In this document: piece after piece, positions 25,686-42,783 of the stretch | Position numbering within the stretch: the first letter of the stretch is position 1 | How the letters are laid out: the number at the start of each line of letters is the position of its first letter | Assembly (NCBI GenBank): GCA_946500425.1 | Contig: CAMMVQ010000009.1 | Coordinates: forward strand, 1 to 47,303 | Source: an uncultured Mollicutes bacterium | GTDB lineage: Bacteria > Bacillota_I > Bacilli_A > RF39 > UBA660 | Direction of reading: 5' to 3' | DNA length: 47,303 bases | Notes under the pieces: generated by a model | The model's input: the letters and a program-made list of their open reading frames with translations, nothing else | Told to the model about the DNA's origin: nothing | Databases searched by the model: none | Made by a program: the position numbers and the translations under genes

Positions 25686-25698
25686 TTTGTTAATTTAA

Positions 25699-25923
25699 AA
25701 AAGCGATGAAAGAAAGAGTATAGGTAAAACTATTAAAGAGAGTATGGTAAGGTGAAAGCATACATAGATAATAACTATATAAATGGTTCTGGAGCTAATT
25801 TATCGATACGTAGGTAAATTCGTTAACGTACGTTATACGTTTTAAGTGCATGCTTATTAACGCATGAATTAAGGTGGTACCGTGGACCAAAAGTTCATCC
25901 TTTATTTGGGATGGACTTTTTTT
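25699..25923 (+). promoter_or_regulatory. T-box leader (Met), specifier probably ATG at 25783-25785
   Basis: agcgatgaaagaaagagta...aaagagag...ggtgaaagc...aaATGGttctggagc...aaggTGGTaccgtgg...terminator catcctttatttgggatggactttttt. Confidence 0.92.
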
Positions 25924-27604: not shown

Positions 27605-28687
27605 GTGATGTATGAGTTAAAGATATATAATAAGCGTGATGGTTTAGTAGCAACCTTTGTAGATGATAGTAAGGAAGTTAAGGCGGTATTAAATGAAAAA
27701 CAAGTTTATGAAATCATGGATGAGGTTAAGCAATCCAGGCTTAATATTGGAAGAATAAACTTTAGTGGAAATAATTTATCATTAAAATGTGGTTCTATTA
27801 AAGTAACGTTAATTAGCCATAAAAGATTTAGAAATAATAAGCGTTTTAGTTTTATTTTTAACGAGTTAAAAAAACGTAGGTATAAGCTCATGGCCCGAAG
27901 AAGTATTCTTCCTGGTGCTCTTTTGGCTACTTTATTATTCGTCATTCCGTCTCCGGTCAACTCTACTTCGTACGTTAATGAAGACTTTAATGGTGAAATG
28001 ACAAATGAATCAAACGTAGTCCAAGATGAGGAGCCGGTTTATTTTGAACCTTTTATAGGTGATGATGTATCTTTAAATCAAACGAAAAATAATCATCCTT
28101 TTTCAAACAAAAATTTAGAGTCATTGGATTATGGCTCTTTAGTTGGTAAGGAAAAATACAATAAAACCCGGGAATTATACGGTCCTATAATTGAACGTTA
28201 CGCTGACATGTACGGAATTAATCCTGATGTTATACTTGCAATTGCGACTCAAGAACGTGGTGTTCACGCAAGTGAAGTAGATGCTGGTGGTGCCGTCGGT
28301 CTTATGCAAATTCAGGTTTCAGTTTGGGACAATTCATCTGTTAAGGCTTATAATTATGAAACTAATGAGGAAGAAAAAATAGATATAAGTTTAGAAAAAC
28401 TAAGAGATATTTCTTTTAATGTGAAGGTTGGTTGTGCAATATTTCAAAATTATCTTGCCATGATGAAGGATAACGTTTTAGCGGCTATACAATGTTATAA
28501 CATGGGACCTGGAACAATGCAGAAAATTATTGGAACTTACGCAAAAGAAGTTGGAAAGACAACTGATGAGGTTTTGGAAAGCAATGATGATGGATGGTTA
28601 GATTACAGAAATGATTCATATGCTGGTGATGTCAATTACGTTGAGCATGTTTTAAGATACCTTGATACTGGTGCGAAAAAAATTTGA
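27605..28687 (+). CDS. Membrane-anchored SLT-type lytic transglycosylase
   Basis: GPIIERYADMYGINPDVILAIATQERG...GGAVGLMQIQVSVWDN...NVKVGCAIFQNYL...AIQCYNMGPG; internal TM ILPGALLATLLFVIPSPV. Confidence 0.88.
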   Translation: MMYELKIYNKRDGLVATFVDDSKEVKAVLNEKQVYEIMDEVKQSRLNIGRINFSGNNLSLKCGSIKVTLISHKRFRNNKRFSFIFNELKKRRYKLMARRSILPGALLATLLFVIPSPVNSTSYVNEDFNGEMTNESNVVQDEEPVYFEPFIGDDVSLNQTKNNHPFSNKNLESLDYGSLVGKEKYNKTRELYGPIIERYADMYGINPDVILAIATQERGVHASEVDAGGAVGLMQIQVSVWDNSSVKAYNYETNEEEKIDISLEKLRDISFNVKVGCAIFQNYLAMMKDNVLAAIQCYNMGPGTMQKIIGTYAKEVGKTTDEVLESNDDGWLDYRNDSYAGDVNYVEHVLRYLDTGAKKI

Positions 28688-28711
28688 TTTTTAATATTTA
28701 ACCTATATAAT
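28684..28711 (+). promoter_or_regulatory. Promoter of retron ncRNA
   Basis: TTGATT-N16-TATAAT; predicted start at about 28718 coincides with the a1 repeat. Confidence 0.65.
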
Positions 28712-28717
28712 ATAAGT

Positions 28718-28890
28718 GTAAACAAATAGCTTTTGATTTTATTATTAAAATCGTTTTAGCGAATCGCTAAAGTATAAAACTTAGATATAACAATTATATT
28801 GTAAAGCGCAATGTAAGTTTATAAGTACGCAGATTCTGCGTACTTATAAACTTACATCTTGCTATTACAATACATTTAGTATTTGTTTAA
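28718..28890 (+). ncRNA. Candidate retron msr-msd ncRNA
   Basis: a1 taaacaaata (28719-28728) complementary to a2 tatttgttta (28880-28889); TAGC with candidate branching G at 28729; msr hairpins 28735-28752 and 28755-28771; msd hairpin 28798-28871 with perfect 23-bp arms 28811-28833/28835-28857. Confidence 0.85.
28811..28857. repeat. Perfect 23-bp inverted repeat (msd stem)
   Basis: atgtaagtttataagtacgcaga-t-tctgcgtacttataaacttacat. Confidence 0.99.
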
Positions 28891-28909
28891 CATTCTAGAA
28901 GATGATAAA

Positions 28910-29855
28910 ATGTGGAAATATTTAACAGATGAGAAATATGACACTTTTTTATCATCTCTTAATTTAGTTAATACAACTAACGTTAAGAAAATAAAAAAGA
29001 TACTTTATAACATAACAAATAATTTAGATGCTAATTATAGTGAGATTATAATTTATAAAAAGCACGGAGGAATAAGATTTTTGTATGAGCCTAGCAAAAT
29101 TTTGAAAAGCATTCAAAAAAGAATATTAAAGAAAATGCTAGAAGAAAGAAAATTATCTAATAGTGCTTGTGCTTATAGAAAGAATTATGGAATTTTAAGA
29201 AATGTTTCTTCTCATGTTGGAAAAAACGTTGTATTAAAATTAGATATAAAAAATTTTTTTGATAACATTAGCTTTAAAATGGTGTATGATGAGTGCTTTA
29301 ACGAAACATTATATCCAAAAAAACTTGGTATGCTACTTACTAATTTGTGTGTTTATAATAATAAATTGCCTCAAGGCGCACCTACTAGTGGATATATATC
29401 TAACCTTGTTATGAGGTCTTTTGATATAAGAGTAGAAAATTATTGCATAAAAAATAACATTACTTATACTAGATATTCTGATGATATGAGTTTTTCTAGT
29501 GATTTTAACGTAAGAGCTTTAATTAATTTTATTGTGGCTTTATTAAGAGAAAGTGGTTTTTTCTTTAAACAAAAGCAAAATAAAGATTATAACCCAAAAA
29601 AAATAGGCAACAAATAACGGAAGCTGTTGTAAATGAAAAAACAACTATAAAAGAAAAATAAGACAAGAAATGTATTATATAAATAAATTTGGATTGAAAA
29701 AACATTTAATTAATAGTAAATACCATAATGACGAAAAATCGTATGTAAAAAGCCTTTATGGAAAAATTAATTATGTATTACAAATAGAAAAAGATAATAA
29801 GGAATTTAAAAAATATAAGTTATTAGTTAAAAGACTACTATTGTATAAAGAATAA
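28910..29855 (+). pseudogene. Retron-type reverse transcriptase, split by two frameshifts
   Basis: LKSIQKRILKKML; NVSSH (cf. retron NAxxH); LKLDIKNFFDNIS; LPQGAPTSGYISNLV; YTRYSDDMSFS. Frame breaks at A8 29596-29603 and at about 29650-29656; third-frame segment RQEMYYINKFGLKKHL...YVKSLYGKINYVLQIEKDNKEFKKY is retron-RT C-terminus-like. Confidence 0.9.
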
Positions 29856-29878
29856 ATGAAAGTTTATTCTTTTTTTAA
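29844..29878 (+). terminator. Intrinsic terminator after RT
   Basis: aaagaataaatgaaagtttattcttttttt. Confidence 0.75.
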
Positions 29879-29962
29879 TTGTATAAAAGCGAGTGATATA
29901 AAAAGATATGACTAATAATTAAAATGAGGGCAACTAAAAACTAGCTTTGTTTTCCATTTTTT

Positions 29963-30079
29963 ATGAAGAATAGAAAGTGGGTGGTGCTTATTAGAATTAA
30001 ATTTGAAATAAAGTTTACTTCAAAACTAATCATCATATTACTTATAATAGTAATCATAATGGTTATTATCTATAAATAA
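29963..30079 (+). CDS. Possible 38-aa single-TM peptide MKNRKWVVLIRIKFEIKFTSKLIIILLIIVIIMVIIYK (alternative GTG start at 29984)
   Basis: Short ORF with basic N-terminus and continuous hydrophobic helix; absent from the ORF track; no strong SD. Confidence 0.4.
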   Translation: MKNRKWVVLIRIKFEIKFTSKLIIILLIIVIIMVIIYK

Positions 30080-30081
30080 GA

Positions 30082-30120
30082 AAACAGAGTTAGTTGCTAA
30101 AAACTAGCTCTGCTTTTCAA
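30082..30120. terminator. Hairpin/terminator after small ORF
   Basis: aaaacagagttagttgctaaaaactagctctgctttt, 11-bp stem with A/T flanks. Confidence 0.6.
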
Positions 30121-30275
30121 ATGATTATATCTTTTGGAAAACAACTAGTAGTTGCCTTCACACAATTAAATTATATCCAAAAATAAGATAAATATCAAGA
30201 AAAAATATTTTCCCTTAAAAGTATTTTGGTTACCTTTTTTAATTATCCTCATAAGTAATAGTAAAGGGTGATAAT

Positions 30276-31586
30276 ATGTCTATATGGATGAATTCAAAAA
30301 TGGTGAAAAAAGGTGACGTATTTTTAGTAACTAATGATAATAAGAAGTATGTTAGCGAGGCGATTAAAAATGGAGCTAAATTAATTGTTACTGAAACTGA
30401 CGACGTATTTGAAATAAAAACCAAGAAGGTTAAAAACGTGAAAGATTATTTGAAAGGCAAGTTATATCCATTAATAAAAGATATAACGTTAATTGGAATT
30501 ACTGGTACTAACGGTAAGACTACTACTTGTTACTTAATTTACCAAATGCTTAATATGCTTGGCATTAAAACAGCGTTTATAGGAACCATAGGGTTTTACG
30601 TTGGAGAAAAAATATTTGATTTAAATAATACCACACCAACGATGGATGTTTTATATGAGCTTATTTTAAAAGCTAAAGAAAAAGATTGTAAGGTGGTGGT
30701 TACGGAAGTTTCGTCACACGCCTTAAAGCAAGAGAGGTTACACGGACTTTTATTTGACGCGGTTGGTGTTACAAACGTGACACAAGACCACCTAGACTAT
30801 CATAAAACGATGGAAGATTATGTAAATTCTAAGGCCTTAATTACTAATTTAACTAGAAATAAAAAAATAGTGATTTTAAATGGAAATGATAAATATTATA
30901 AGATGTTTTTAAAGAGAGATAATAATAATTATGTAATAGAAAAAGATGTTATTATAAAAAACGTATTACAGGAATTTGATAAGGTTAAGATTAATACTAG
31001 TGATGGAACTTTCAATATTAAATTATTGGGGCGTTTTAATGTTTTTAACTTTTTAATGGCTTATGAAATAATAAAAAAGTTAGGCTATAGTGTGAGTAAA
31101 TTAGATTTTTTAAAACTAACTGAACCCCCTGGTAGAATGCAAATGATAAATTATAAAGATAATTACATTTTAATTGATTATGCACACACTCCTGATGCGG
31201 TTGAAAACGTATTAAAAACCGTTTGTGAAACAAAAAATAAAGGTATTATCACAATCATTGGATGCGGAGGCAACCGTGATAAAAGTAAAAGACCGCTCAT
31301 GGCTAAGATTGCCTGTGAAAATTCTAGTTATGTTATTTTTACTAATGATAACCCAAGATGTGAGGATGAAAAACTAATAATGAATGATATTTTAAAAGGA
31401 GCTTTTGGAAGCTACGAAGTCATTTATAATCGTGGTGATGCAATAAAAAGAGGGATTGATCTTTTAGATGGTAATAAAATTCTTATGATACTTGGTAAAG
31501 GACACGAATGTTATCAAATAATAGGTAAAACAAAACATCATTTTTCAGATTATGAAGAAGTTAATAAAACTATATTAAAATTGTAA
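30276..31586 (+). CDS. murE: UDP-N-acetylmuramoyl-tripeptide synthetase (MurE-type ligase)
   Basis: IGITGTNGKTTTCYLIYQML; EVSSHALKQERL; DYAHTPDAVENVL; TNDNPRCED (DNPR). Confidence 0.93.
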   Translation: MSIWMNSKMVKKGDVFLVTNDNKKYVSEAIKNGAKLIVTETDDVFEIKTKKVKNVKDYLKGKLYPLIKDITLIGITGTNGKTTTCYLIYQMLNMLGIKTAFIGTIGFYVGEKIFDLNNTTPTMDVLYELILKAKEKDCKVVVTEVSSHALKQERLHGLLFDAVGVTNVTQDHLDYHKTMEDYVNSKALITNLTRNKKIVILNGNDKYYKMFLKRDNNNYVIEKDVIIKNVLQEFDKVKINTSDGTFNIKLLGRFNVFNFLMAYEIIKKLGYSVSKLDFLKLTEPPGRMQMINYKDNYILIDYAHTPDAVENVLKTVCETKNKGIITIIGCGGNRDKSKRPLMAKIACENSSYVIFTNDNPRCEDEKLIMNDILKGAFGSYEVIYNRGDAIKRGIDLLDGNKILMILGKGHECYQIIGKTKHHFSDYEEVNKTILKL

Positions 31587-31648: not shown

Positions 31649-32317
31649 ATGTCTAAGTGGGATAAGGATTATCTAGAATTATGTAAAAGAATATTAGAAG
31701 AGGGAAAAGAAGTTGAAAACAGAACTGGTATTAATACGATAAAAGTTCCATCTCATAGCTTTCATTTTAATTTACAAGATGAATACCCAGTTTTAACTAC
31801 TAAACAGTTATTTTTTAGGCAAGCGATACTTGAGATGTTTTGGATATATCAAGTACAAAGTAACGACGTTAGATGGTTAAAAGAAAGGGACGTTCACATT
31901 TGGGACGAATGGGAAATAAACGAAGATGGAATATGGCGTGCTTATCAGAACGTACCTGATGCGGATGGAAAATTAAATGCCTTTGTTCATCAAAGAAGTT
32001 GTGATGTTCCTCTTGGGCTTCCTTTTAATGTGACTCAGTATGCAACTCTTTTATGTATGCTTGCGAAAACTACGGGGCTAGAACCAGGGTATTTGGATTG
32101 GAGTATAAAAGATGCTCATATTTATGTTAATCAAGTTGATGGAATAAAAGAACAAATAAGAAGAATGGAAGAACTTGGAGATTTTCCGGCACCGTCTTTA
32201 TGGCTTAATCCAGAAGTTAAAAACTTTTATGATTATGATAACTCTAAAGATTTAAAAGACGTTAAAGTCTTAAATTATAAGCATCATGGAAAAATAAAGT
32301 TTCCAATTGCACAGTAG
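31649..32317 (+). CDS. thyA: Thymidylate synthase, apparently internally deleted
   Basis: Canonical N- and C-terminal segments (VENRTGINTIKVPSH, LTTKQLFFRQAILEM, HQRSCDVPLGLPFNVTQYATLL, DWSIKDAHIYVNQ, YKHHGKIKFPIAQ) but the catalytic PxC block is absent; 222 aa. Confidence 0.88.
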   Translation: MSKWDKDYLELCKRILEEGKEVENRTGINTIKVPSHSFHFNLQDEYPVLTTKQLFFRQAILEMFWIYQVQSNDVRWLKERDVHIWDEWEINEDGIWRAYQNVPDADGKLNAFVHQRSCDVPLGLPFNVTQYATLLCMLAKTTGLEPGYLDWSIKDAHIYVNQVDGIKEQIRRMEELGDFPAPSLWLNPEVKNFYDYDNSKDLKDVKVLNYKHHGKIKFPIAQ

Positions 32318-36660: not shown

Positions 36661-36850
36661 TTTCGACAAGTTTTTTAGGAATAAGGTATATAGTAGGTGG
36701 CTAAAAGGAGCGTAACATGAACTACTATAACGAAATAAAACAAGAACTAATAAATAATGAAACATATAAAAAGGTAAAAGACTACTCTAAAAATAGAAAT
36801 GATTTAAAAACATATTATAACGTTGGAAAGCTTTTAAGTGATGCAGGAAA
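36661..36850 (+). repeat. Direct repeat copy 1 (upstream region plus 5' coding of DUF1016 A)
   Basis: tttcgacaag..ttttt.ggaataaggtatatagtaggtggctaaaaggagc.ta.catgaactactataacgaaataaaacaa; near-identical copy 959 nt downstream. Confidence 0.9.
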
Positions 36851-37607
36851 ACATTATGGTGAAGGAATTATTGAAAAGTATTCCAAAAAACTAGAGATAG
36901 AAGTTAATAAGAAATATAATAAAAGAACATTATTTAGAATGAGACAATTCTATTTGATGTTTAAAGACGAGAAAGTGTCACCATTGGCGACACAATTAAG
37001 TTGGTCGCATTATATAGAAGTATTGTCACTCAAAGATATGAATAAAATTAATTATTATATAAAAATAGCAGAAGAACAAATTTTAAGTAAAAGAGAACTT
37101 CGCAAAAGAATAAAAAATAATGAATATGAAAGACTAGATGAAAAGACGAAAGAAAAGTTAATAACAAAAGAAGAGAACAAAGTAGAAGATTTTATAAAAA
37201 ATCCAATATTAATTAGAAATAAATATAATAGAGAAAATATATCAGAAAAGATGTTACAGCAACTAATACTAGAAGATATACCATCTTTTTTAGATGAACT
37301 AGGTAGCGGTTTTACATTTATAAGAAATGAATTTAAAATGAAAATAGGTAACAGGTATAATTACATAGATTTATTACTATTTAATTATGTTTATAATTGT
37401 TTTGTAGTAGTAGAATTAAAAGTAACGGAGTTAAAAAAAGAACATATTGGACAAATAGAAACGTACATGAATTACATAGACAAAAACATAAAGCAATTAA
37501 ATCAAAATAGTACTATAGGAATTATTATATGTAGGAAAGATAACGTTTTTATTATGAGGTATGTAACAAATGAGAATATTTTTGAAAGAAATTATGAATT
37601 AACATAA
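36717..37607 (+). CDS. DUF1016/YhcG-family PDDEXK nuclease-like protein, paralog A
   Basis: N-terminal YYNVGKLLSDAGKHYGEGIIEKYSKKLE..MRQFYLMF..LSWSHYIEVL; C-terminal YNYIDLLLFNYVYNCFVVVELK. Confidence 0.88.
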   Translation: MNYYNEIKQELINNETYKKVKDYSKNRNDLKTYYNVGKLLSDAGKHYGEGIIEKYSKKLEIEVNKKYNKRTLFRMRQFYLMFKDEKVSPLATQLSWSHYIEVLSLKDMNKINYYIKIAEEQILSKRELRKRIKNNEYERLDEKTKEKLITKEENKVEDFIKNPILIRNKYNRENISEKMLQQLILEDIPSFLDELGSGFTFIRNEFKMKIGNRYNYIDLLLFNYVYNCFVVVELKVTELKKEHIGQIETYMNYIDKNIKQLNQNSTIGIIICRKDNVFIMRYVTNENIFERNYELT

Positions 37608-37619
37608 AGAGAATTTTTA

Positions 37620-37810
37620 TTTCGACAAGATTTTTTGGAATAAGGTATATAGTAGGTGGCTAAAAGGAGCATAGCATGAACTACTATAACGAAATAAAAC
37701 AAGAGTTAATAAATAATGAAACATATAAAAAAGTAAAAGACTATTCTAAAAATAGAAGTGATTTAAAAACATATTATAACGTTGGAAAGCTTTTAAGTGA
37801 GGCGGGAAAA
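37620..37810 (+). repeat. Direct repeat copy 2 (upstream region plus 5' coding of DUF1016 B)
   Basis: Matches 36661-36850 with few differences. Confidence 0.9.
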
Positions 37811-38560
37811 CATTATGGTGAAGGTATTATTAAAAGTTATTCCAAAAAGTTAACGATAGAACTTGGTACTGGCTATACGTCTTCTTCTTTAAAACGAATG
37901 AGGCAGTTTTTTATAGTTTTACAAAAAGGTGCGACAATGTCGCACCAATTGACCTGGAGTCATTATGTAGAACTTTTACCAATGGAAGATACAAATAAGA
38001 TTAACTATTATGTAAAAATAACAGAAAATCAAAACTTATCAGTAAGAGAATTAAGGCAAAGGATAAAAAATAATGAGTACGAAAGATTAGATTATAAAAC
38101 AAAGGAGAAATTAATAACAAAAGAAGAAAATAAAGTAGAAGATTTTATAAAGAATCCAATATTAATTAGAAATAAATATAATAAAGAAAATATATCAGAA
38201 AGGATGTTGCAACAGTTAATATTAGAGGATATACCTTCTTTTCTTCATGAACTAGGCAATGGTTTTAGTTTTATAGAAAACGAATATAAGATTAAGATAG
38301 GAAATAGATACAATTATATAGATTTACTATTATATAACATTAATTTTAATTGTTACGTAGTGGTTGAACTAAAAGTAACGGAATTAAAAAAAGAACATAT
38401 TGGACAAATAGAAACGTACATGGCTTACGTTGATAAGAATATTAAACAGGTAGAGCAAAATAATACTATAGGAATTATTATATGCAAAAAAGATAACGTC
38501 TTTATCATGAAATATGTAACAAATAAGAATGTTTTTGAAAGGGAATACGAGCTGCTATAA
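37676..38560 (+). CDS. DUF1016/YhcG-family PDDEXK nuclease-like protein, paralog B
   Basis: Very similar N- and C-termini to paralog A; KGATMSHQLTWSHYVELL; YNYIDLLLYNINFNCYVVVELK. Confidence 0.88.
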   Translation: MNYYNEIKQELINNETYKKVKDYSKNRSDLKTYYNVGKLLSEAGKHYGEGIIKSYSKKLTIELGTGYTSSSLKRMRQFFIVLQKGATMSHQLTWSHYVELLPMEDTNKINYYVKITENQNLSVRELRQRIKNNEYERLDYKTKEKLITKEENKVEDFIKNPILIRNKYNKENISERMLQQLILEDIPSFLHELGNGFSFIENEYKIKIGNRYNYIDLLLYNINFNCYVVVELKVTELKKEHIGQIETYMAYVDKNIKQVEQNNTIGIIICKKDNVFIMKYVTNKNVFEREYELL

Positions 38561-42569: not shown

Positions 42570-42579
42570 TATTTTATAT

Positions 42580-42783
42580 TAAAATCATTGATGAAAAACT
42601 AGTAGACAAACAATTTGTTTTAAAGAGAGTTAGCGCGTGGTGAGAGCTAATAAACAATGGTTGCCGAAGCTATTTTCTAGAGCAATTAATACTTGCCGGT
42701 TAAAAGCCGTTATCTAAATTAAGAATAAATTAGGATGGTACCACGGTCTAATCGTTCCTAGCGATAGATGTGGTGCCTCTTTT
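42580..42783 (+). promoter_or_regulatory. T-box leader (Ala), specifier probably GCT at 42669-42671
   Basis: ttgatgaaaaactagtaga...aaagagag...ggtgagag...gaaGCTattttctagagc...aggaTGGTaccacggtc; terminator ggtaccac/gtggtgcc followed by tctttt. Confidence 0.9.

Follow-up and report, generated by a model that had tools for sequence, protein, structure and literature searches.

The stretch of DNA analysed here (47 303 nucleotides, hereafter the window) contains a retron which, judged by the sequence profiles of its reverse transcriptase (RT), is Ec107-like. The window copy is very probably an effector-less Ec107-like retron that persisted by vertical descent and was inactivated recently, and an intact relative in the same genome (G000:C21) probably supplies the retron activity of the cell.

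Organization of the locus

The features of the locus are collected in Table 1. An earlier note on this DNA had described a complete-looking retron locus; the retron anatomy stood and the completeness did not, since the RT is split by three indels and its VTG motif is changed. The promoter, the perfectly complementary a1 and a2 repeats and the G after a1 were all present, the two msr hairpins and the single msd hairpin were recovered by folding, the RT motifs NVSSH, LPQGAPTSG and YSDD were all found and a terminator-like hairpin was seen at the end of the locus. The host had been taken to be a low-GC Firmicute, in agreement with a low-GC, Bacilli-like genome, and the placement between dnaJ (21966) and rsmE (33928) was correct and could be narrowed to the interval between slt and murE.

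Table 1. Features of the retron locus (positions in the window).
Feature	Position	Strand	Basis
Sigma-70-like promoter TTGATT-N16-TATAAT	28684..28711	+	Read off sequence; TATAAT kept across loci
TTGATT box; 16-nt spacer; TATAAT box	28684-28689; spacer; 28706-28711	+	Sequence
a1 inverted repeat TAAACAAATA	28719..28728	+	Perfect complement of a2; fold; covariation
Putative branching G (first msr base)	28729	+	Directly 3' of a1; aligned in 41 loci
msr stem-loop SL1, 7 bp, TTAT loop	28735..28752	+	Fold
msr stem-loop SL2, TTTAGCG-AAT-CGCTAAA	28755..28771	+	Fold; compensatory changes
msd region (outer stem 28797-28807/28861-28872; inner 22-bp perfect hairpin 28811-28857)	28797..28872	+	Fold
a2 inverted repeat TATTTGTTTA	28880..28889	+	Perfect complement of a1; fold; covariation
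Retron RT, N-terminal two thirds (palm/fingers; NVSSH, LPQGAPTSG, YSDD)	28910..29617	+	PADLOC and Pfam profiles
Displaced RT C-terminal region, other frames (QQITEAVVNEK..., KIRQEMYYINKFGLKKHL...)	29618..29855	+	Three-frame translation, relatives' alignment, whole-genome search
Terminator-like hairpin GAATAAA-TGAAAG-TTTATTC-T7	29850..29876	+	Sequence; matches place of slt terminator in empty sites

Promoter and structure of the RNA

The RNA at 28715-28895 gave a minimum free energy of -61.4 kcal/mol compared with -27.7 +/- 4.1 kcal/mol for dinucleotide shuffles (z = -8.3; 0 of 200 shuffles as good); the fold, whose calculation the earlier note had proposed, is far better than that of the shuffles. 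Forty-one homologous loci were aligned (alignment A1) and a consensus was calculated with RNAalifold, which recovered a1/a2, SL2 and the base of the msd stem. Covariation was tested on the RNAalifold structure with two added a1/a2 pairs, 21 pairs in all. Over the 41 loci 96.5% of the cells were paired (shuffles, 80.5%; slid controls, 33-53%), and the covariation score was 0.450 (shuffles, 0.163; slid controls, 0.06-0.10); as the structure was derived from the same alignment, the slid control is biased in its favour, and the double changes are independent of this bias. Such compensatory changes were found in 19 of the 21 tested pairs. They affected eight of nine pairs in the a1/a2 helix (helix 1 of A1) and seven of eight in SL2, and the inner msd stem covaried at its base, so that the covariation test that had also been suggested gave a strong result in a1/a2, SL2 and the msd base. 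An a1/a2-flanked msr-msd RNA with conserved structure is accordingly present upstream of the RT in these 41 loci.

The putative branching G after a1 is aligned in all A1 loci (by sequence position only). The place of SL1 is conserved among the relatives and its sequence is variable; the loop of SL2 reads GAGTC in most relatives and GAATC in the window copy, and the long perfect msd hairpin is peculiar to the window copy. When scored alone in a consensus scan, the window promoter was not above chance. TATAAT lies 18-24 nt 5' of the branching G in 35 of the 41 homologous loci (6.6 expected from shuffles), and the promoter call is supported by this conservation across loci rather than by the match at a single locus. 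Rfam searches at the gathering and at relaxed cut-offs yielded no retron family match to the window RNA. The RNA consensus of this retron family is well supported and is without an Rfam match at the gathering cut-off. Some miRNA-like Rfam matches to the long hairpin were taken as chance.

Class of the reverse transcriptase

The RT was assigned to a class by profile scores, with type names following PADLOC. For the window fragment the best profile was RT_Ec107-like (PDLC03739; 267.5 bits, 3.7e-80), and Pfam RVT_1 also matched. The same profile was the best for all five family members tested as well as for the window fragment; for the intact paralogue it scored 383.7 bits, with type III-A second at 331.8 bits. 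The PDB matches were all solved retron RTs, Ec86 being the best (6e-38).

Lesions and probable decay of the window copy

The RT frame of the window runs from an ATG at 28910 to a stop at 29615-29617; it is homologous in frame to about 29556 and out of frame thereafter. Nucleotide alignment with five relatives from the genus located a +1 insertion in the T-run at 29557-29562, another +1 near 29593-29595 and a loss of 13 nt near 29642. As a result of these three indels the 3' third of the RT is spread over three frames, with the C-terminal region (to 29855) in the third. A whole-genome search independently placed four stops inside the RT match. With the RT inactivated in this way, the window copy most likely makes no msDNA alone.

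An uninterrupted RT frame, lacking in the window, is found in the C21 copy (L001) and in nearly all relatives. Region X (NAxxH) reads NVSSH in the window and region Y (VTG) reads ITE, so that the NAxxH/VTG pair is absent; in Ec86/Ec73, msDNA synthesis and msr binding depend on these two regions (PMC6868368). The ribosome-binding site (Shine-Dalgarno) AGGAGA reads AGAAGA in the window and is weakened. The window copy was filed as a decayed retron member because its intact relatives carry the defining features.

The timing of the decay was judged from 215 in-frame codons. Unique amino-acid changes numbered 36 in the window and 14 in the sister lineage (chi2 9.7). The window branch was mildly long (0.42 compared with 0.28-0.39) and showed four violations of conserved columns, a number equalled by another divergent member. 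Changes by codon position were 28, 25 and 39; the third-position excess thus persists, which suggests that constraint was held over most of the branch and lost late. Two a1/a2 pairs (columns 15/221 and 19/217) have changed on both sides in the window lineage with pairing kept, which also points to recent loss.

Intact relatives and the slt-murE interval

The intact RT at G000:C21 is 319 residues long, is about 66% identical to the window RT, reads NAKPH, YSDD and VTG and has its own RNA. In G001 the slt-murE interval (about 10 kb) holds an intact retron whose RT is 92% identical to that of C21. The cyclophilin-like gene downstream of the retron is common to both places, as are further genes; the C21 copy therefore seems to belong to an island that was relocated or imported. 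The block common to the two places (L088, L089) comprises genes for a LeuA-like synthase, the retron, a cyclophilin-like membrane-anchored protein, a hydrolase and a flavoprotein, and the LeuA-like synthase gene is split in G000.

Relatives were found in eight of 18 genomes of the genus. In the bacterial family as a whole, 48 of 291 genomes gave some RT match (about 35 of them strong), and a GTDB-wide contig scan gave 48 loci, mostly in metagenome-assembled genomes named Bacilli, Erysipelotrichaceae or Tenericutes. Phage and plasmid collections held only distant relatives (<60% identity). The suggestion that the locus may be a new member was borne out only in a restricted sense: the locus is a decayed member of a retron family carried by about one in ten of the 291 genomes sampled in the bacterial family. 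Interrupted RT relatives also occur in G096, G105, G178 and G185; to judge from these frames, decay is recurrent in this retron family.

In three genomes of the genus (G002, G003 and G010) the slot is empty, the slt-murE gap being 71-111 bp, with the terminator included in G002 and G010. G004 and G008 carry an intact retron just 5' of the slt terminator (slt itself is absent in G008). Since the terminator is present in both empty and occupied sites, the retron uses the slt terminator and has not replaced it. In G017 an RT remnant (residues 176-287, in two frames) lies in the slot, and no retron RNA was found with it. The same slot is therefore seen intact, decayed, as a remnant and without the element, a natural series for the function and loss of a stand-alone retron.

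The slt-murE interval (28687-30276 in the window; L089, L092, L106) looks like an insertion hotspot of the genus. Its contents vary by species: a retron, a toxin-antitoxin-like module, transporter/regulator and redox genes, or nothing.

Alternative explanations

A non-retron RT (from a group II intron, a DGR or another class) next to incidental hairpins has a negligible probability. Weak matches to group II intron and DRT models were obtained, the group II intron model scoring 61.6 bits with the intact paralogue and 43.8 bits with the window fragment; the retron profiles lie hundreds of bits above it, the intact relative has NAxxH and VTG, and the upstream RNA covaries. The profile scores and the covariation refute a non-retron class and bear out the retron identification made in the earlier note. 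It is also quite unlikely that the living strain has an uninterrupted RT and a fully functional Ec107-like retron, the indels being assembly or sequencing faults. In favour of such faults, two of the three are single-base indels at or beside homopolymers, where sequencing faults occur. Some 2 kb downstream, thyA (31649-32317) is shorter than in genus relatives by an in-frame deletion of about 67 internal residues which covers the active-site region and whose break falls between two similar 15-bp stretches. No second thyA and no thyX were found in the 92%-complete genome, and an organism would rarely tolerate this; the deletion makes an assembly fault in this stretch possible, and may be either a real loss by the strain or a fault of the contig. 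Against such faults in the RT, no interruption is apparent in the remaining long frames of the window, thyA excepted, which favours real lesions; a loss of 13 nt is atypical of a base-calling fault, and genuine decay is indicated by the change of VTG to ITE, the altered ribosome-binding site and the surplus of amino-acid changes.

A further explanation, compatible with recent inactivation and in itself unlikely, is that the broken locus is still useful because the intact C21 RT reverse-transcribes the window RNA in trans, as a satellite msr-msd. In the window copy the promoter and a1/a2 are retained, the SL2 stem is complete and the msd hairpin is perfect; SL2 has a single change in 17 constant columns, the two doubly changed a1/a2 pairs still pair, and a retron with RT-less msr-msd repeats is mentioned in a review (PMC6868368). 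On the other side, the SL2 loop has a G-to-A change, the msd core has changes in 11 of 43 constant columns and the compensatory a1/a2 changes may predate the RT lesions. If action in trans did occur, one intact RT would serve two templates and the long perfect msd hairpin of the window would give a second, different msDNA. Recent inactivation of the window copy remains the preferred reading.

Neighbouring genes and proposed mechanism

Beyond local synteny groups (the pyrG group and the YchF group), no gene family recurs beside the RT in 49 loci, which argues that, as in stand-alone Ec107, no effector gene lies close by. An effector-less retron family, common among low-GC members, is thereby documented in uncultured gut Bacilli.

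The working form, as in the intact homologues, can be described by analogy with characterized retrons. The promoter would drive transcription of a1-msr-msd-a2-RT, and a1 and a2 would pair. The RT would bind SL2 and the neighbouring msr structure and use the 2'-OH of the G that follows a1 as primer; reverse transcription of the msd would then give a short hairpin DNA joined to the msr RNA. The intact members are likely to produce an msDNA-RT complex without a partner gene close by. With no adjacent effector, any defence or regulatory role would have to work through the msDNA-RT complex itself or through host factors acting in trans; a role in defence may be supposed for this family from what is known of other retrons.

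Other features of the window

A module at 29924-30180 resembles Fst-type type I toxin-antitoxin loci. It comprises a leader (ATGAGGGCAACTAAAAACTAGC), a small hydrophobic frame (LIRIKFEIKFTSKLIIILLIIVIIMVIIYK) and direct repeats, its 3' end is complementary to the leader and it gave no Rfam match at the gathering cut-off. A second copy lies at G000:C2:51307-51338 and a similar module occurs in the slt-murE interval of G012 (L106). Two T-box leaders over the Rfam cut-off were found, at 25697-25905 upstream of metG and at 42579-42762 just 5' of a frame at 42770 which precedes alaS. The adjacent genes at 36717-37607 and 37676-38560 are closely similar, encode about 295 residues starting with MNYYNEIKQELINNETYKKVKDYSKNR and form a tandem duplication; they presumably resemble DUF1016/YhcG-type nucleases.

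Comparison with known retrons

Type III-A retrons, which supply the second-best RT profile for the intact paralogue, carry PRTase/winged-helix effector genes (PMC12548924), whereas such effectors were not found beside the loci of this family. Retron-Eco1 (Ec86; PDB entries 7v9u, 7v9x and 8qbk) is the best PDB match, and its alignment with the intact paralogue brings NAxxH and VTG into register, but the match is distant and covers just the middle part of the RT (query residues 39-261 of 319). Ec86 itself is accompanied by an effector gene and has an msr of another kind, a presumed contrast with the present family.

Retron-Eco5 (Ec107) shares with the family an RT of about 310-320 residues, a neighbourhood in which no effector was found and an intergenic site with no mobile element directly attached (PMC6868368). 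It differs in its hosts, which are Enterobacteria and here are AT-rich uncultured Bacilli, and in its catalytic motif, YCDD instead of the YSDD found here; the window copy, moreover, is broken. The insertion of Ec107 in E. coli replaces a palindrome (PMC6868368), which is not known as a group-defining trait. Here no palindrome was replaced at the insertion site: the slt terminator hairpin is retained downstream of the RT in G004 and G008, so that the flanking terminator is kept where Ec107 has replaced a 34-bp palindrome.
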